Of a DNA stretch of 8,165 nucleotides, positions 1-5,992 are shown one piece after another (the first letter of the stretch is position 1; each line of letters opens with the position of its first letter). The stretch covers positions 1 through 8,165 of the forward strand of contig JAAYYM010000710.1 of the NCBI GenBank assembly GCA_012515365.1, read 5' to 3'. The position numbers were made by a program, and so were the translations under genes. The notes beneath the pieces are model-generated. The model ran no database searches. It had not been told where the DNA came from and worked only from the letters and a program-made list of their open reading frames with translations. The DNA comes from Clostridia bacterium (GTDB lineage Bacteria; Bacillota_A; Clostridia; Lachnospirales; Lachnospiraceae).

Positions 1-312
1 AGCTGCAATACAGTCTACACCATATTTATCACGGAAAGTATCTGTAAAAAATTTTAGTATCATTTCCGGTTCTTCCTTTGTCAACGATTCTTCCAATGCA
101 ATAATCCATTCTCTGCCCTCCACCACCATACCGGAACAACCATAGCGATCATGCTCTTTATGATTTTCTTCCTTGAGCTGCTTCCAGAATTCAGGTGTAG
201 CAGTATCATATGTGGCATAAAGATGTTCCTGTCTATCGGGATTGGTGATGTAATCAATTCGACCACCGATATCAGATAACTTTGTTTGTCTACAATATGA
301 ATGTCTTGGCAT
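1..312 (-). CDS. MobA/MobL-type relaxase, N-terminal part (cut by window edge)
   Basis: This is the first 104 codons of a mobilisation relaxase, the enzyme that nicks one strand at oriT and pilots it into the recipient. The ATG at 310-312 has a good ribosome binding site (AGAAAGGAG, five bases upstream). The visible protein begins MPRHSYCRQTKLSDIGGRID and contains the pattern GRIDYI.NP.RQEHLYATYDT...FWKQL, then REWIIALEES and YGVDCIAA. From memory of the family, these match the N-terminal region of Firmicute MobA/MobL-like (MobP) relaxases, in which the VDC.AA stretch is followed at once by the metal-binding HxH motif. That motif would fall just outside the window, so catalytic residues cannot be checked. 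The gene is the last visible in the minus-strand run excisionase, repA, small DNA-binding protein, relaxase. It is preceded by a hairpin-rich spacer that probably contains its target. Confidence 0.75.
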   Translation of the reverse strand, partial: MPRHSYCRQTKLSDIGGRIDYITNPDRQEHLYATYDTATPEFWKQLKEENHKEHDRYGCSGMVVEGREWIIALEESLTKEEPEMILKFFTDTFRDKYGVDCIAA

Positions 313-326
313 ACGTTCTCCTTTCT

Positions 327-380
327 GTGAGTAGGTGCCATAGGGCACCTGTTTACGAACGATTGTCCGTTTCCGGACAT
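327..380. repeat. Two-hairpin module, copy A
   Basis: A 54-nt unit: GTGAGT, a 7-bp hairpin with a 4-nt loop (AGGTGCC/GGCACCT, 333-350), the linker GTTTACGAAC (351-360), three bases, then a 6-bp hairpin with a 4-nt loop (TGTCCG/CGGACA, 364-379). It aligns without a gap to copy B, 153 bases to the right. On the minus strand it lies just upstream of the relaxase ribosome binding site. It may be a relaxase or accessory-protein site in an oriT region, or a structured leader in the relaxase mRNA. Confidence 0.8.
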
Positions 381-400
381 CTGGCTTTGGCTCCGCAGGA

Positions 401-448
401 CGAAATACGTTTGCATAAGGCGCAGCCTTGTGCAAATGGGGTATTTCG
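401..448. repeat. Large nested inverted repeat, candidate oriT core
   Basis: The inner arms TTTGCATAAGGC (410-421) and GCCTTGTGCAAA (425-436) pair over 12 positions around a GCA loop, with one T/G mismatch that would be a wobble pair. The outer arms CGAAATAC (401-408) and GTATTTCG (441-448) are a perfect 8-bp inverted repeat. The structure sits in the non-coding spacer directly upstream of the relaxase gene, the usual place for an origin of transfer. The repeat is directly visible. The oriT role is inferred, and no nic site can be assigned. Confidence 0.6.
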
Positions 449-451
449 CTC

Positions 452-751
452 TCAATCGGCGAGGCCTGTTTGAGGGAACGTGAGTGGATGCTTTGGAGCA
501 TCCGTTAACGAACTATGAGCCGTATCCGGCTCTTTAGAATACAGATTATCTAACTCATTCTGTATAATTTTTCGTAGCATTTTCTCTATTTCGTCTTGAT
601 AAGATTCTACTGTTGATTGGTTATCATCCTGATCAAGCAATAACTTTTTGATACTTTTACTATGAATTTTCCCTAGTTGTTTCAGATTTTCGTAAGCCTT
701 AACGTCCTCCGGCTTTTCCATATAAAATCGAACCATTACCTCTTTCTTCAT
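452..751 (-). CDS. Small ribbon-helix-helix / ParR-like DNA-binding protein
   Basis: A 99-residue protein. Its N-terminal segment, KKEVMVRFYMEKPEDVKAYE up to about residue 40, resembles ParR-type centromere-binding or mobilisation-accessory proteins: a short beta strand (EVMVRFYM) followed by helices, as in ribbon-helix-helix folds. Residues 40-75 are charged and probably helical. The C-terminal 25 residues (rich in Pro, Thr and Ser) look disordered. The start is firm: AGGAGG precedes the ATG and overlaps the stop codon of repA, nine bases upstream, so the two genes are likely translationally coupled. Possible roles are partitioning of the circular form or help to the relaxase at oriT. The gene's 3' end runs through hairpin module B, so its last codons may be shaped by the DNA or RNA structure rather than by the protein. 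Family assignment is by eye and uncertain. Confidence 0.6.
   Translation of the reverse strand: MKKEVMVRFYMEKPEDVKAYENLKQLGKIHSKSIKKLLLDQDDNQSTVESYQDEIEKMLRKIIQNELDNLYSKEPDTAHSSLTDAPKHPLTFPQTGLAD
480..533. repeat. Two-hairpin module, copy B
   Basis: The second copy of the 54-nt unit, with the layout of copy A: GTGAGT, the 7-bp hairpin GGATGCT/AGCATCC with a 4-nt loop (486-503), the linker GTTAACGAAC (504-513), three bases, and the 6-bp hairpin GAGCCG/CGGCTC with a 4-nt loop (517-532). All six differences between the stems of the two copies are matched on the partner strand. The copy lies inside the 3' end of the small ParR-like gene, so these bases both code for protein and fold. Confidence 0.8.
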
Positions 752-760
752 GTCTGCCTC

Positions 761-1690
761 CTATTCCGGTAAAACACCTTTTTCCTGCCATCCACCACCA
801 TACATGTCATGTTGTACAGTCTGGTCAATATAATTTCGAAATGTCGTAGGAGCATGATATAAGGCTGTAGTCAAATAGGCTCTTATATTTTTAATTTTGG
901 TAGTGGTCTTATCCAGACAATCCATAACATACAACAAATGTTTTTCCGTAATCATCAAATATCTTGCTTTGACCGTTTCATACGGATATTCTGTACCTTC
1001 AATGCGAATGGTTTTTCGCTTTACACTGACTACGTCACAAATAATTTCATATATTTCCTGTAGCTTCTGTTTTTGTGAATCATCCAATACTTCCATGCTC
1101 TCATCAAGACTAATATTCTCCTTGATAATCTCTCGATACATATTTGTCATATCAATCTCATCCATCTCTTTCGTATCACAAGGATTGATAGATTGGATAT
1201 TATTCTGTTCAATATAACTCATATCTATATAACTAGTGTCCGTTTCTTGAGCCTGCGCAGGTTCTGTAATCGGGTTTGCAGAGGTTCGATTTTCGGACTT
1301 CTTATTTTCAGATTTCCCTTCGTCATCTTGTTTACAGCCTGTATAATGAACAAAATCTTGAACGTATATCTTATCTGGCTTTCCTAACCCCTGTCTTTTT
1401 CTCTCAATTAGTCCATATCCTTTTTCTATATCAAGTTCTGCTAAAATCTTTGTACATTTTCCTTTACCACATCCAAGGTCATCCATGATGTTTTCTGTAG
1501 AATAGTAGATAAATACTCTATTTTCTTTATCTATCCATTTGTTTTTGACTGACAAGGACATTTTTTCAAGCATAAGACCATATAGCATTTTTGCTTCTAA
1601 TGACATATCCTTAAATCTTTCATCCTTGATTAATATTCTTGGTATCCGTAAAAACGAATACTGTTCTGCTTCATTTCCCTTAAAATACAT
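761..1690 (-). CDS. RepA_N-family replication initiator with DUF6017 C-terminal domain
   Basis: A 309-residue replication initiator of the kind carried by Clostridia plasmids and by integrative elements that replicate after excision. The N-terminal RepA_N winged-helix domain spans about residues 10-115 (FLRIPRILIKDERFKDMSLEAKMLYGLML, then VFIYYSTENIMDDLGCGKGKCTKILAELD and GLIERKRQGLGKPDKIYV). A low-complexity polar linker covers about 120-180. The C-terminal part (about 182-300: MYREIIKENI, VSVKRKTIRIEG, NIRAYLTTALYHAPTT) fits the DUF6017 domain that is paired with RepA_N in these elements. The ATG at 1688-1690 has an AGGAGG site seven bases upstream. A hairpin with a U-tract lies about 20 bases above that site and may attenuate expression. 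In this family the origin often lies within the rep gene; I could not pick out iterons by eye. The family assignment is confident, the replication role is inherited from the family. Confidence 0.9.
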   Translation of the reverse strand: MYFKGNEAEQYSFLRIPRILIKDERFKDMSLEAKMLYGLMLEKMSLSVKNKWIDKENRVFIYYSTENIMDDLGCGKGKCTKILAELDIEKGYGLIERKRQGLGKPDKIYVQDFVHYTGCKQDDEGKSENKKSENRTSANPITEPAQAQETDTSYIDMSYIEQNNIQSINPCDTKEMDEIDMTNMYREIIKENISLDESMEVLDDSQKQKLQEIYEIICDVVSVKRKTIRIEGTEYPYETVKARYLMITEKHLLYVMDCLDKTTTKIKNIRAYLTTALYHAPTTFRNYIDQTVQHDMYGGGWQEKGVLPE

Positions 1691-2373: not shown

Positions 2374-2470
2374 ACAGATATGAATCTGTTTGCACTTGTG
2401 CAATTTTATTTGGGCTGGTCGTAAGACCCTGGTCCAACCTAATCGGCGGGGAGACTCCCCGCCATTTTTT
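2374..2470 (+). ncRNA. Structured RNA leader ending in a terminator, upstream of the DUF3800 relic
   Basis: Four hairpins occur in a row: ACAGAT/ATCTGT (2374-2389), TTGCA/TGCAA (2390-2403), GGTC-GTAA-GACC with a GNRA-type tetraloop (2417-2428), and the strong GGCGGGGA/TCCCCGCC (2445-2463) followed by ATTTTTT (2464-2470). CTGGTC occurs twice (2415-2420 and 2429-2434), so alternative pairings are possible. Several conserved RNA classes named DUF3800 motifs have been reported upstream of DUF3800 genes, and this position fits. I cannot tell which class, if any, it belongs to. It could be a regulatory leader or a free small RNA. Confidence 0.55.
2445..2470 (+). terminator. Rho-independent terminator at the end of the leader RNA
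   Basis: An 8-bp GC-rich stem, GGCGGGGA/TCCCCGCC, with a GAC loop and a run of six T. It lies 18 bases before the DUF3800 start codon, so most transcripts should stop before the reading frame unless the leader prevents this hairpin. Confidence 0.85.
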
Positions 2471-2488
2471 ATTTTATGAGGAAAACAA

Positions 2489-2641
2489 ATGAAAGAATTA
2501 AGCATTTTTGTCGATGAATCCGGAGATTTTGGCAAATACAGTCAACAATTCCATTTATCTCGCTCTGAAAAACTTATATTTTATTCTAAACGCGACTTAA
2601 ACAAAGATTTCTTAAAGCCAATCCAAAAACTACTGTTCTAA
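2489..2641 (+). pseudogene. DUF3800 protein relic, internally deleted
   Basis: A 50-codon frame with a good site (GAGG seven bases before ATG). It begins MKELSIFVDESGDFGKYSQQ, the very typical start of DUF3800 proteins (IFVDESGDFG, with a conserved acidic residue). It continues directly into FHLSRSEKLIFYSKRDLNKDFLKPIQKLLF, which resembles the C-terminal end of the family (a polar SRSE..IF helix, then RDLNKDFLKPI). Family members are usually more than 200 residues, so the middle appears to have been lost by an in-frame deletion near codons 19-21. The frame and stop are intact, so a short peptide could still be made, but the presumed catalytic core is gone. DUF3800 proteins are uncharacterised nuclease-like proteins common in accessory DNA. 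The last four bases overlap the convergent stop of the AlbA_2 gene (2638-2641). The family call is confident; the C-terminal match is from memory. Confidence 0.7.
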
Positions 2642-4095
2642 TTCTTAAGTCTATATACTCTATTACGGTTCCCACCTTCTGCCACAATAATATCTTCCCC
2701 AATGAGTTCCTTTAGATAATCTCGTGTTCTTGATGGTTTTAGATTAATTTCCTTAGCAATATCTGATGCCTTTACAACTGCCTGATCCGTAAGATATTCA
2801 ATAATCTTTTCTCGTGTTTTGTCTTTTATCGCCGTTTTTTTATCGCCGTTTTTTATCGCCGTTTTTTTATCGCCGTTTTTTTCAATTGATAACTTGAGCG
2901 TGATACGTTCCGGTTCATAATTTTCCGTAATAACCGGCAATTTCCAACCCTGCTGATTCCATACACCATAGATATTCGGTATACCACTTCCTGCACGTTC
3001 CCCAATATCAATCAAATTAAACATTTTAAAGATTATATTATTTCGCGGATCAGAAACGCCGCCGCTTTTTGCCGCTTCAATTTCAATACGGAAACTACCT
3101 GGATTGGATAGCGTTATTAGATTTCTCTTTTTGATAATAACCAAACCTTGCCTACCATAATAATCTGCATTGACAAGGCAATTAGCAAGCGCCTCTCGCA
3201 ATGCCTGATGAATGGGAGTATCCTCTACTCGCTCTCCGCCTTCCAATCTAAACGGAACCTTAATATCCTGCATCAGTTTATGATATACTCGATAATAAAA
3301 ATCATAGATATTTCCGCTCCAATCACCGGATGATGAAATAATTCGATCCGTCCAGCGCGTTGTATCATCATACTGCTCCTGATAGTCCAAGAAGTAGTTA
3401 TTGAATTCTCTTACAATTTCATATTCCCAACCAAACATTAGCAGACCGGCAGCTGTTGGATGCTTTTTGCCGTCATTTCCAATCCCAATTGCACCTATCT
3501 TCATCAAAAAACTTTCATCGTCAAGAACTTCCCAAACATGTCCGGGCCGTGATAATCTCATCCTCATACGATAACTTTTGACACTCTCTGCACAAAATAC
3601 AGAGGTATCCATTTCCTCAAGAATAATCATGTCTTGTGTTTTCGTAGTAGCATCACGCATCATGGCATGAACTTCTTCTTTTGTACATTTGTAATCACCC
3701 TCACCATTTCGACGATAAGTGCCCGAAATAGGGTTTCCGTCAATATACACGGGCTTGTAATATCTCTCTGCTCGAGGAACAGATATGACAATGATATCAT
3801 TCCCGTCAACTTCTTGGACAAATACATCTTTATCGGAGAGGATATTAACGCTGACTTTATTTGGATTGTTTAAGATATCCCAAAACTCTTTAATCAATTT
3901 CTCCGGATTAGAGAGATTCACTGCATGCAACGATTTATCTGCATGTTCTACAACACCCAGCAAAATAATTCCACCCAGTGTATTGGCAAAAGCAGAATAT
4001 GTTTCCCATATGCTAAGAGGTAACCCGCCGAGTGCTTTCTTGGCTTCAATTCGATTATTTTCTCTATACTGGTCCAAACGATTAAAATCTATCAT
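2638..4095 (-). CDS. AlbA_2 (Schlafen-type) / ATPase / winged-helix regulator, COG2865-like
   Basis: A 485-residue protein with three parts. An AlbA_2/Schlafen-like nucleic-acid-binding domain spans about residues 8-145 (ENNRIEAKKALGGLPLSIWE, FANTLGGIILLGV, GTYRRNGEGDYKCT). A GHKL-type ATPase segment covers about 290-400, with EALANCLVNADY at 301-312, NPG at 331-333 and RNNIIFKMFNLIDIGERAGSGI at 351-372. The C-terminal winged helix is at about 427-485 (REKIIEYLTDQAVVKASDIAKEINLKPSRTRDYLKELI). Between the last two lies a perfect 9-residue tandem repeat, NGDKKTAIK twice. Proteins of this kind are annotated as predicted transcriptional regulators or RecG-like ATP-binding proteins, and some relatives occur in defence islands; the substrate is unknown. 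The start ATG overlaps the stop of the preceding small gene (ATGA, 4092-4095), indicating coupling. I infer a regulatory or stress role and cannot specify a target. Confidence 0.85.
   Translation of the reverse strand: MIDFNRLDQYRENNRIEAKKALGGLPLSIWETYSAFANTLGGIILLGVVEHADKSLHAVNLSNPEKLIKEFWDILNNPNKVSVNILSDKDVFVQEVDGNDIIVISVPRAERYYKPVYIDGNPISGTYRRNGEGDYKCTKEEVHAMMRDATTKTQDMIILEEMDTSVFCAESVKSYRMRMRLSRPGHVWEVLDDESFLMKIGAIGIGNDGKKHPTAAGLLMFGWEYEIVREFNNYFLDYQEQYDDTTRWTDRIISSSGDWSGNIYDFYYRVYHKLMQDIKVPFRLEGGERVEDTPIHQALREALANCLVNADYYGRQGLVIIKKRNLITLSNPGSFRIEIEAAKSGGVSDPRNNIIFKMFNLIDIGERAGSGIPNIYGVWNQQGWKLPVITENYEPERITLKLSIEKNGDKKTAIKNGDKKTAIKDKTREKIIEYLTDQAVVKASDIAKEINLKPSRTRDYLKELIGEDIIVAEGGNRNRVYRLKN
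2828..2882. repeat. Four tandem 13-14 nt repeats with poly-T runs, inside the AlbA_2 gene
   Basis: ATCGCCG followed by six or seven T occurs four times in a row (2828-2841, 2842-2854, 2855-2868, 2869-2882; lengths 14, 13, 14, 14). On the coding strand, alternate units are read in different frames, as NGDKK and as TAIK. The linker between the ATPase and winged-helix domains is therefore a 27-nt, 9-residue repeat in two copies. Runs of seven A and tandem units make it prone to slippage. Confidence 0.9.
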
Positions 4096-4283
4096 GGCCG
4101 CTCCTCTTCCTTTGCTGATTTCTCTCTTGTTGTATTTTTCTCTATCTTTTCCATGGAAAGTGGATAATCGAATTCCTTTTTAATTCTCTCAGCCGTATAT
4201 CCTTTGTCTGCCAGATGCCTAATTGCATCTCCATATGCAAAGTTCTGTACAAAATCTGCTAAAGCATCATCAAAGTATGACAC
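4092..4283 (-). CDS. Small conserved-type protein coupled to the AlbA_2 gene
   Basis: A 63-residue acidic protein if read from the GTG at 4281-4283. The longest frame would reach an ATG at 4304. I prefer the GTG because AAGGTG lies six bases before it, while the ATG has only a weak site, and the recognisable part begins there (SYFDDALADFVQNFAYGDAIRHLADKGYTAERI). This resembles the start of an uncharacterised Clostridia family with the pattern DDALADF...AYGDAIRHLAD.GYT...I...FD.PLS, whose members, as I recall them, continue for roughly another 50-100 residues. Here the protein stops soon after PLSMEKIEKNTT in a charged tail, so it may be a truncated version. Its TGA overlaps the ATG of the AlbA_2 protein by four bases. 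It follows the DUF368 gene by 46 bases without a terminator between, so all three are probably co-transcribed. Function unknown. Confidence 0.6.
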   Translation of the reverse strand: MSYFDDALADFVQNFAYGDAIRHLADKGYTAERIKKEFDYPLSMEKIEKNTTREKSAKEEERP

Positions 4284-4329
4284 ATCTATCACCTTCCGCA
4301 ACATCTATGCACTTCGTTTTACAGTATCT

Positions 4330-5172
4330 CTACTTCTTTTCTATCTTACCATTAAATCGATCCAGCATCAATGCAGCAAAAATCCCGACTGCAAGGCATA
4401 CTACATTAATCATCCAACTCATCCAAGAAGTAAAAAAGCTATCATATGGGATAATCATAACCGTTGCTGCAATTACAATTCCCACAATTGCATGAAACGA
4501 AACGGAATAATGACAATCAAAGAGATAATTAACCCCCTTTGACAGGCAGACAACCGTCAGCAATGCACCAATGCCGCCGGGGAGCAGCACACCCATAGAC
4601 AGATTCCCGATACCGTCCACAAAAGGTGTATACAACCCAAGTGGCATCAAAAGAGTTGAAAAGCTCATGCCGGGTGCAATCAAACTTAATGCCAGACAAA
4701 AGCCACAGAATAAGTACCATGTAAAACCGGGAGTGAGCGAAACAGATGCACTTTTCAAACCAATCAAAAGTGCAAAGATAACCACCATAGCAGTCAACAT
4801 CGACCAAACAGACATTTTATTTCTGCCTTGTTCGCCGGCTTCTCTCCACAAAGAAGGTAACATTCCGCCGATTAAGCCTACAAACAAGCAAACTGAAGGC
4901 GCCGGATACCGTTCTAAGACAAATGCCAATAACTTGGCAATTCCTAAAAATCCAATCATTACTCCGATAATATAAGGAATTAACTTGGGAACGTGTGTCT
5001 TGAAATTACGGAAAGGATTAGCCAACAACTCCATAATGGGTTTGTAGATACCAAATATAACGCTGAGAACACCTCCGGAAACACCCGGTAAAACGGCACC
5101 CAATCCAATGAGTGCCCCTTGGAACATCTGTAGTACAAAATTATTATTCGTCAAAATCTGTTTCTCTTTCAC
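4330..5172 (-). CDS. DUF368 membrane protein, PopT-type polyprenyl-phosphate transporter
   Basis: A 280-residue, very hydrophobic protein with about eight predicted membrane segments. It carries the two DUF368 signature motifs in pseudo-symmetric halves: GALIGLGAVLPGVSGGVLSVIFGIY at residues 19-43, and LALSLIAPGMSFSTLLMPLGLY at about 160-181. DUF368 proteins (PopT) have been shown to help return undecaprenyl phosphate across the cytoplasmic membrane, recycling the lipid carrier for peptidoglycan and other envelope polymers. That role is taken from the family. The start is GTG at 5170-5172; AAAGGAG lies upstream with a rather long spacing (about 12 bases), and I see no better in-frame start. 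The gene follows a histidine kinase/response regulator pair by 130 bases that include a perfect 14-bp inverted repeat, and precedes two small-operon genes. Regulation by the two-component system is plausible from position only. Confidence 0.88.
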   Translation of the reverse strand: MKEKQILTNNNFVLQMFQGALIGLGAVLPGVSGGVLSVIFGIYKPIMELLANPFRNFKTHVPKLIPYIIGVMIGFLGIAKLLAFVLERYPAPSVCLFVGLIGGMLPSLWREAGEQGRNKMSVWSMLTAMVVIFALLIGLKSASVSLTPGFTWYLFCGFCLALSLIAPGMSFSTLLMPLGLYTPFVDGIGNLSMGVLLPGGIGALLTVVCLSKGVNYLFDCHYSVSFHAIVGIVIAATVMIIPYDSFFTSWMSWMINVVCLAVGIFAALMLDRFNGKIEKK

Positions 5173-5201
5173 TAATCTTTGAGTCTCCTTTTTTCATAGT
5201 A

Positions 5202-5234
5202 ATAGGGGAAATTATATAAAATAATTTCCCCTAT
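5202..5234. repeat. Perfect 14-bp inverted repeat between the response regulator and DUF368 genes
   Basis: ATAGGGGAAATTAT (5202-5215) and ATAATTTCCCCTAT (5221-5234) are exact reverse complements around ATAAA. No T-run follows on the minus strand, so it is not a classical intrinsic terminator. A possible leftward promoter (CTGACA, 17 bases, TAGTAT, at about 5236-5264) lies just upstream in the minus direction, which would place the repeat in the DUF368 leader. It may be an operator, an mRNA-stabilising hairpin or a weak terminator. Confidence 0.6.
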
Positions 5235-5302
5235 ATACTAAAGGATATGCTTTTTTATGTCAGTTAAATACAGATTTCTTAACAAAATCTAAATTTAACC
5301 TA

Positions 5303-5992
5303 TTATATCTTAAATCGATATCCAACACCCCATATCGTCTCAATATACTGTGGCTTTGCAGTATCAAATTCAATCTTTTCACGAATTTTCTTAATATGCA
5401 CGGTAACCGTTGCAATATCTCCGATAGAATCCATATCCCATATTTCCCGGAACAACTCTTCCTTTGTATATACATGGTTAGGGTTCTGTGCCATAAATGT
5501 CAATAAATCAAATTCCTTGGTCGTAAAGTTCTTCTCTTCACCATCCACATAAACTCTTCTTGCCGTCTTATCAATGCGAAGTCCTCTGATTTCCACAATT
5601 TCATTTGCATTGGCATTGCTTCCAATCAGCCGCTCATAACGCGCAAGATGTGCCTTTACCCTTGCTACCAATTCACTCGGGCTAAACGGCTTCGTGATAT
5701 AATCGTCAGCACCAAGTCCTAATCCTCTGATTTTATCGATGTCATCCTTCTTTGCCGATACCATGATAATGGGAATATTCTTGGCAATTCTAATCTGTTT
5801 GCAAATTTCAAATCCGTCTACATTTGGCAACATCAAATCCAGGATAAATAAATCAAAATCCTCTTCTAATGCTCTTGCAAGCCCTGTGTCTCCCGAATTT
5901 TCTATTTCTACCTCAAAGCCCGATAATTCAAGATAGTCTTTCTCCAGTTCCGCAATGGATTCCTCATCCTCAACTATTAATATTCTGTTCAT
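5303..5992 (-). CDS. OmpR/PhoB-family response regulator
   Basis: A 229-residue, full-length two-component response regulator. The receiver domain covers residues 1-118: acidic pocket E8-D9, phospho-acceptor D52 in LFILDLMLP, switch S79 in IIMVSAK, and K101 in DDYITKPF. The winged-helix DNA-binding domain covers about 132-228 (VYVDGEEKNFTTKEFDLLTFMAQNP, then TVTVHIKKIREKIE and the closing IETIWGVGYRF). The start ATG at 5990-5992 has GGGAGGT about nine bases upstream, inside the 3' end of the kinase gene; the two frames overlap by 23 bases, so kinase and regulator are translationally coupled. The order, kinase first and regulator second, is the less usual one. The target genes are not shown by the sequence; the DUF368 gene directly downstream is the obvious candidate. 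Confidence 0.95.
   Translation of the reverse strand: MNRILIVEDEESIAELEKDYLELSGFEVEIENSGDTGLARALEEDFDLFILDLMLPNVDGFEICKQIRIAKNIPIIMVSAKKDDIDKIRGLGLGADDYITKPFSPSELVARVKAHLARYERLIGSNANANEIVEIRGLRIDKTARRVYVDGEEKNFTTKEFDLLTFMAQNPNHVYTKEELFREIWDMDSIGDIATVTVHIKKIREKIEFDTAKPQYIETIWGVGYRFKI

Follow-up and report, generated by a model that had tools for sequence, protein, structure and literature searches.

The primase site ssi of RSF1010 has hairpins near oriT, and in the nic regions of IncQ and IncP plasmids a conserved block follows an inverted repeat on the transferred strand. Leader RNAs are described for conjugation operons of Gram-positive bacteria, namely conAn2 and canT (PMC8955417, PMC11658703). 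We present here a two-hairpin module that we infer to be a structured cis-acting element in the mobilization region of Lachnospiraceae-type mobile elements. Because its shape is kept while its letters change, and because it accompanies two unrelated sets of transfer genes, this module very probably functions in moving or controlling these elements.

Organization of the locus

The window, i.e. the whole stretch of 8,165 nucleotides analysed (Clostridia bacterium, Lachnospiraceae, contig JAAYYM010000710.1), carries on its minus strand, in this order, a RepA_N/DUF6017 initiator, a 99-aa gene and the start of a relaxase. ‘Sense’ denotes the strand of the relaxase, here the minus strand; hairpin 1 of the module is separated from the linker by 3–4 bases. 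The features are as follows.

1..312, minus strand: N-terminal 104 aa of a relaxase homologous to the PF03389 MobA_MobL relaxases; the gene runs off the window
327..380, minus strand: module copy A, in the relaxase leader, from reading and folding; in sense order hairpin 1, linker GTTCGTAAAC, hairpin 2, ACTCAC; on the plus strand GTGAGT (327–332), 7-bp hairpin, linker, GAT, 6-bp hairpin
333..350, minus strand: hairpin 2 of copy A, 7 bp, sense-strand loop CTAT
351..360, minus strand: linker of copy A, GTTTACGAAC on the plus strand and GTTCGTAAAC on the minus strand
364..379, minus strand: hairpin 1 of copy A, 6 bp, sense-strand loop GAAA
392..400, no strand assigned: small hairpin at the foot of the inverted repeat, with loop TGC on the sense strand and GCA on the other
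401..448, no strand assigned: inverted repeat of the presumed oriT core, folding with z −5.2
449..466, plus strand: conserved block beside the inverted repeat, on the presumed nic side, CTCTCAATCGGCGAGGCC; sense-strand counterpart in relatives (A)GCCCTCGGCGTTTGAGAG
452..751, minus strand: 99-aa gene with no family assigned; its 3′ end coincides with copy B and overlaps the conserved block
480..533, minus strand: module copy B, within the 3′ end of the 99-aa gene, across the oriT core from copy A, from reading and folding; on the plus strand GTGAGT (480–485), 7-bp hairpin, linker, TAT, 6-bp hairpin
486..503, minus strand: hairpin 2 of copy B, 7 bp, sense-strand loop CCAA
504..513, minus strand: linker of copy B, GTTAACGAAC on the plus strand and GTTCGTTAAC on the minus strand, deviating from GTTCRYA
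517..532, minus strand: hairpin 1 of copy B, 6 bp, sense-strand loop GATA
761..1690, minus strand: replication initiator with RepA_N and DUF6017 domains (Pfam)

On direct reading, the two copies align over 54 bases without a gap and differ at six of 13 stem pairs (pairs 1, 3 and 7 of the 7-bp stem; pairs 1, 2 and 3 of the 6-bp stem), all six being changed on both sides and none broken, exactly as the original prediction had claimed. The pattern GTGAGTN{14,24}GTTWACGAAC matches exactly twice in the window and in none of 200 shuffles. With DNA parameters, both copies fold on both strands with z values of −5.6 to −6.0, and 0 of 200 shuffles folded as well. Three further structures were considered and discarded: a 3-bp linker mini-hairpin GTT..AAC, drawn by the folding program, is not conserved, its pairing being lost in relatives (sense-strand examples are GTTCGTAACC, GTTCGTAGAC and GTTCGTATGC), and the bases fit, by eye, neither a loop–loop pairing between the two hairpins nor a tRNA-like T-loop in the linker.

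The 99-aa protein had been called ParR-like, and a centromere had been suggested among other readings. Neither idea is supported: the protein has no Pfam match near the cut-off, no NCBIfam match and no convincing PDB match, and no ParR-type protein was recognized by family or structure. A protein search retrieved one cluster, 94% identical. Copy B codes for the C-terminus of this protein, and those residues are kept in its sole protein relative, P0001, except one in the spacer. In a plasmid collection, two weak matches to the relaxase were obtained, with no DNA match to positions 300–560 and no match to the 99-aa protein.

Elsewhere in the window, positions 2411–2460 (plus strand) match the Rfam RNA DUF3800-XI with 64.8 bits (gathering threshold 37.8), and are followed by a short, probably truncated reading frame (2489–2641) that we take to be DUF3800-like. 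Positions 2241–2290 resemble the T arm and acceptor that make up the 3′ half of a tRNA, and ARAGORN reports no full tRNA gene; this stretch is possibly the attachment site at one end of a mobile element. A short tandem repeat lies at 2826–2881 in an AlbA_2/HATPase_c_4 gene, the protein repeating GDKKTAIK.

The presumed oriT core

The inverted repeat at 401–448 presumably belongs to an oriT core. Indeed, the window and nine loci retrieved through its relaxase share a conserved core upstream of the relaxase, composed of (A)GCCCTCGGCG..TGAGAGCGAAATACACCC, then a loop, then a returning arm with TTTCG at its end; this marks the region as a putative oriT, with a presumed nic position. A pattern search located the core ahead of the relaxase at 21 of 22 near-full-length matches (defined below), and it is present at 31 of 33 module-bearing loci, L219 showing only part of it and L159 none that we could find. 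The stem letters of the foot hairpin vary among relatives, its loop being TGC in 10 of 17 distinct hairpins. A compound oriT had been one of the readings first offered for the two copies: they do flank an oriT core that contains the 401–448 repeat, but the module itself is not the core.

Other hairpins are found around the core. A pair of them (e.g. GCCCGGATACGGGC and GGGCGGATACGCCC) occurs on the leading side of oriT in L131, L133–L136, L143, L149, L158, L160, L161 and L163, and likewise in some module-free loci (L127, L129). Extra perfect hairpins are stacked between core and module in L141, L142, L152, L186, L216, L217 and L224, putting the linker about 100, 145, 190 or 285 bases from the core.

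Relatives of the module

Alignment of the relaxase start yielded nine loci from named genomes, 46–50% identical, of which one (L123) has the module, the other eight giving no match at E ≤ 1 with the covariance model R1 described below. The pattern GTTCGTWAACN{12,22}ACTCAC, scanned in 348 genomes of the family of Anaerobium, occurred at 13 places in 12 genomes, and the reversed pattern used as a control at none among the 348 rows listed. Eleven of these 13 places enclose a hairpin, have another 5′ of the linker and a relaxase homologue downstream; the remaining two (L137, L140) lie inside unrelated genes without a hairpin and were set aside as chance matches.

Two covariance models were then used. 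R1, built from eight of the 14 modules then known, chosen for equal spacing, had matches in one genome out of 391 in the class, 12 out of 392 in the order and eight out of 64 in one genus; R2, built from 27 modules, matched at 29 places, spread over 26 of 378 genomes from the family (these genome draws overlap, so that totals are not additive). In the order, 10 of the 13 R1 places adjoin relaxases and three (E 0.03–0.07) do not. With R2, 24 places reach E ≤ 1e-4 and all 24 are at relaxases, some of whose genes look broken (e.g. L216, L217, L219); among the five weaker places, one is the second copy of L151 and the others seem to be chance matches. The window's own copies, both within the training set, score 64.4 bits with R1 and 62.6 bits with R2 (copy A) and 66.9 bits with R1 (copy B).

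Altogether, the pattern and covariance searches brought 35 distinct module versions beyond the window's two. All confident matches adjoin mobilization genes, usually between the oriT core and the first such gene. The placement of copy A in a relaxase leader and the association with MobA/MobL-type relaxases, both stated in the original prediction, are thereby confirmed, and the covariance search that it proposed did return matches with covarying stems upstream of relaxases of this type. L154–L156, L220–L223, L150:2351, L193 and four weak rows of the final module alignment were dropped as chance. In viral contigs, the pattern scan gave at least 120 matching stretches; of the 120 listed, two had any 4-bp spacer stem and none was a module. 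The relaxase scan gave five stretches, none of them a relative.

Covariation and constant parts

The pairing is maintained throughout these relatives. In a MAFFT alignment of eight modules, which is not fitted to any model, 96.6% of cells are paired, eight of 11 pairs show two-sided changes and the covariation score is 0.614, versus 0.269 when shuffled. Alignments fitted to the model, which lean towards it, give higher values: for 27 modules, 98.0% of cells paired, two-sided changes at 11 of 11 pairs and a score of 0.803 (shuffled 0.246; slid controls at most 0.147); for 48 rows, including the four judged chance, 98.3%, 11 of 11 and 0.748 (shuffled 0.199). Compensatory changes thus exceed both shuffled and slid controls, as expected of a conserved, covarying structured element: the module is under strong selection for pairing and is not a product of chance. 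The earlier claim of selection on pairing, with sequence kept in linker and flank, is borne out.

While the stems vary, the sense-strand linker is GTTCRYA in 34 of 37 distinct modules, and the tail YTCAC ends 32 of the 37. The three linker exceptions are exactly the copies located upstream of the oriT core, namely copy B in the window and, in L151 and L153, the second copy. The hairpin-1 loop is GNNA in 31 of the 37 (over all loops, GATA 14, GAAA eight, GACA six, AATA three and six others once each), and many of these loops are not GNRA, their third base often being T or C. L219 has an extra hairpin inserted between linker and hairpin 2. The combination GTTCRYA–hairpin–YTCAC beside an oriT core could serve as a sequence tag for finding the oriT regions of such elements.

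Inheritance of the module and the second copy

When 392 genomes of the order were searched with a relaxase profile, 21 genomes had matches, 27 in all; five of these matches were partial (L196, L197, L201–L203) and were left out, and the other 22 were near full length. The module is present at 10 of these 22 loci, nine being detected by R1 at E ≤ 3.1e-5 and the diverged L186 at E 0.005 and by eye, and is absent from the other 12. In a tree built from the relaxases of 53 loci (33 with the module, 20 without), its presence changes four times, versus 16.3 in shuffles, in a sample enriched for module-bearing loci, many of which were fetched via the module; the module thus appears to be inherited along clades and sometimes lost. 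The window itself forms a long separate branch.

The usual state is a single copy, downstream of the core. Indeed, linker-like sequence upstream of the core was found at one of 31 module-bearing MobA_MobL loci with a core, the window itself, so that two copies are not a general feature of MobA_MobL elements. Related elements lacking the second copy had been named as what would refute the two-copy module: 30 of 31 MobA_MobL module loci do lack the upstream linker, and the module itself is missing from 12 of 22 relaxase loci, but two of three elements with a PF03432 relaxase (L151, L153; see below) have a second, diverged copy across oriT (R1 E 0.13 and 0.28; R2 E 0.003 and 0.016, respectively). 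L150, the third, has a similar but degenerate stretch across oriT, seen by eye. Hairpins with GNNA loops are also found upstream: at least two occur at 12 of 31 loci with the module versus two of 19 without, and at least one at 26 of 50 loci on the sense strand versus two of 50 on the other strand.

These data bear on the simplest explanation of the window, a recent tandem duplication or a functionless chance repeat. The two copies are merely 153 bases apart, as a duplication could leave them. However, they have different hairpin-2 stem types, each present in other elements: AGGTGC of copy A recurs in eight loci whose relaxases are closest to the window's, and GGATGC of copy B in L131, L132, L134 and L139. 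As the module is moreover held along relaxase clades in this enriched sample, and as covariation already disfavours it, such an origin is hardly credible.

Two relaxase systems

Most module matches belong to PF03389 MobA_MobL relaxases, the domain being identified by Pfam at L131, L168, L169 and L179; the window's 104-aa fragment, which has no Pfam match of its own, is assigned to this type of mobilization region by homology. L150, L151 and L153 have MobC and a different, VirD2-like relaxase (PF03432, by Pfam on L150 and on L153, analysed as L173, and by reading frames for L151). Their oriT core differs; its arrangement, AGCAAGCA.. hairpin ..TGCTTG, is also that of four MobC-relaxase regions taken from plasmid records (L164–L167, including pMG2200), in which no module was found. 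In the PF03432 elements the module directly precedes mobC, and its orientation relative to the mob genes is the same in both systems. In L172 and L173, a Tn916-type integrase lies at a distance of 3 to 6 kb from the start of the relaxase. The idea that these elements lack transfer machinery and are purely mobilizable was abandoned, since Pfam analysis of nine ORFs in L173 identified a DUF87/TrwB_AAD_bind (HerA/TrwB-like) protein at 2395–5610, about 2.7 kb beyond the relaxase gene.

By eye, L150, L151 and L153 have a terminator-like hairpin with a T run, located upstream of the second copy and between a divergent gene and the module; it might attenuate or insulate the mob operon. A T-run attenuator considered for the window was rejected, no terminator being found there.

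The occurrence of the same element in two unrelated relaxase systems with overlapping host groups could mean that both families present a cis site, for recognition or by mimicry, to a helper conjugative element and are mobilized along with it. We hold this to be improbable: no copy was found in a conjugative element, the four MobC-relaxase plasmid regions are devoid of it, and the HerA/TrwB-like gene of L173 suggests that the PF03432 family may not need a helper.

Among the genes observed, the only one common to both systems is an RHH/NikA-like accessory protein. The hairpins could then be mere inverted repeats, acting as double-stranded sites for such a dimeric protein, and the conserved short motifs that flank hairpin 2 would suit this reading. 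Nevertheless, the stem letters change freely while pairing stays, unlike in an operator read by its bases, and no RHH match is detectable in the window's 99-aa protein, which makes this explanation very unlikely.

Strand, molecule and possible role

Two readings are left to be weighed, a folded RNA and a folded single strand of DNA, and the strand that folds bears on both. Read on the sense strand, 39 distinct stems contain seven G·T versus two A·C mismatches (one-sided binomial 0.09), which, together with the GNNA loops, favours folding of the sense strand. This bias is weak, since a wider survey of 124 hairpins of these regions gave 14 G·T versus 15 A·C, along with 16 GNNA versus seven TNNC tetraloops. 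The transferred strand is probably the opposite one, on which the conserved block follows the inverted repeat and the foot hairpin has its GCA loop; a fold of the sense strand would then mean RNA. The conserved orientation of the module does not separate RNA from DNA, as the polarities of transcription and transfer coincide in both families.

On this weak evidence we slightly favour, as a tentative proposal, a module acting as folded RNA within the mob operon's 5′ leader; the transcript of this operon would run through oriT. The two stems, with the purine-led tetraloop of hairpin 1, would hold unpaired GUUCRYA and YUCAC in a fixed geometry and present them to a hypothetical trans-acting factor, which would regulate translation of the relaxase genes or elongation into them. 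The second copy, in the window, would precede oriT within the same presumed transcript. Such a factor might be encoded by the host or a helper, given that the two systems share no observed gene except that of the RHH/NikA-like accessory protein. All 11 hairpin-bearing pattern matches and all 24 R2 places at E ≤ 1e-4 stand at relaxases, and in the window and L150 a few bases separate the end of the module from the ribosome-binding site that follows, as would suit a leader. However, the module lies at widely differing distances from the start codon, the strand bias, judged on the broad set, is weak, and loops other than GNRA are frequent. Promoter scans lent no support to a transcript through the module: no sigma-70-like promoter was found on the minus strand between 200 and 900 of the window, and none above threshold in 13 of the 22 relatives with a located core. 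Moreover, the matches lie only at oriT and not in other operon leaders, which suits a role in DNA transfer at least as well.

Such a role would be that of a single-stranded DNA element whose hairpins fold after nicking; a protein of the host or of a helper would bind them, to prime the complementary strand (sso/ssi-like), assemble the relaxosome or close the strand. We regard this as a serious possibility, if still short of probable. Confident matches occur only beside oriT and mob genes; in the window, L151 and L153, oriT is flanked on either side by full or partial hairpin units, and many others have upstream GNNA hairpins; and further perfect hairpins fill the same region. Two unrelated relaxases carry the module, as expected of a factor acting on any transferred strand, and Tn916 offers a precedent, having a single-strand origin beside oriT. 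Against this stand the loop and wobble asymmetries, which point to the strand that is probably not transferred, and the fact that no sso or ssi consensus is apparent by eye in the module.

More speculatively, and with some doubt on our side, the module might be a portable, relaxase-independent folded element that unrelated Lachnospiraceae elements placed separately beside oriT, a shared cis ‘licence’ (RNA or single-stranded DNA) read by one host or helper factor and coupling mob expression or second-strand synthesis to transfer. An element common to two unrelated mobilization systems points to a common, unrecognised step or factor. Integrative mobilizable elements are common and little studied, and the module offers a compact target for compensatory-mutation tests.

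Comparison with known systems

Literature searches brought up no record that, judged by its entry, describes such an element. In a survey of structured RNAs in human microbiomes, the words mobile, conjugati and mobiliz are absent from the main text (PMC8040213); the module may be among the candidates in its supplementary lists. The module covaries like an RNA family, but no family of Rfam 15 matches it in the window or in the 10 relatives searched. It adjoins, in both families, a core resembling the oriT inverted repeats of MOBQ/MOBP relaxases, but differs from that core, being absent from 12 of 22 relaxase loci when the core is found at 21 of the 22. With sso916 and the ssi of RSF1010 it has in common hairpins near the oriT of mobile elements, whereas no consensus is shared by eye and its functional strand appears to be the other one. 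The leader antiterminator RNAs conAn2 of pLS20 and canT of Tn916 are similar in being cis elements located close to where an operon for Gram-positive conjugation or DNA processing begins, and in these known cases the element is RNA; the present module, likened to them by description only, differs in lying beside oriT and, in the PF03432 elements, downstream of a terminator-like hairpin. We regard it as a new structured oriT-leader element, whose function we infer.
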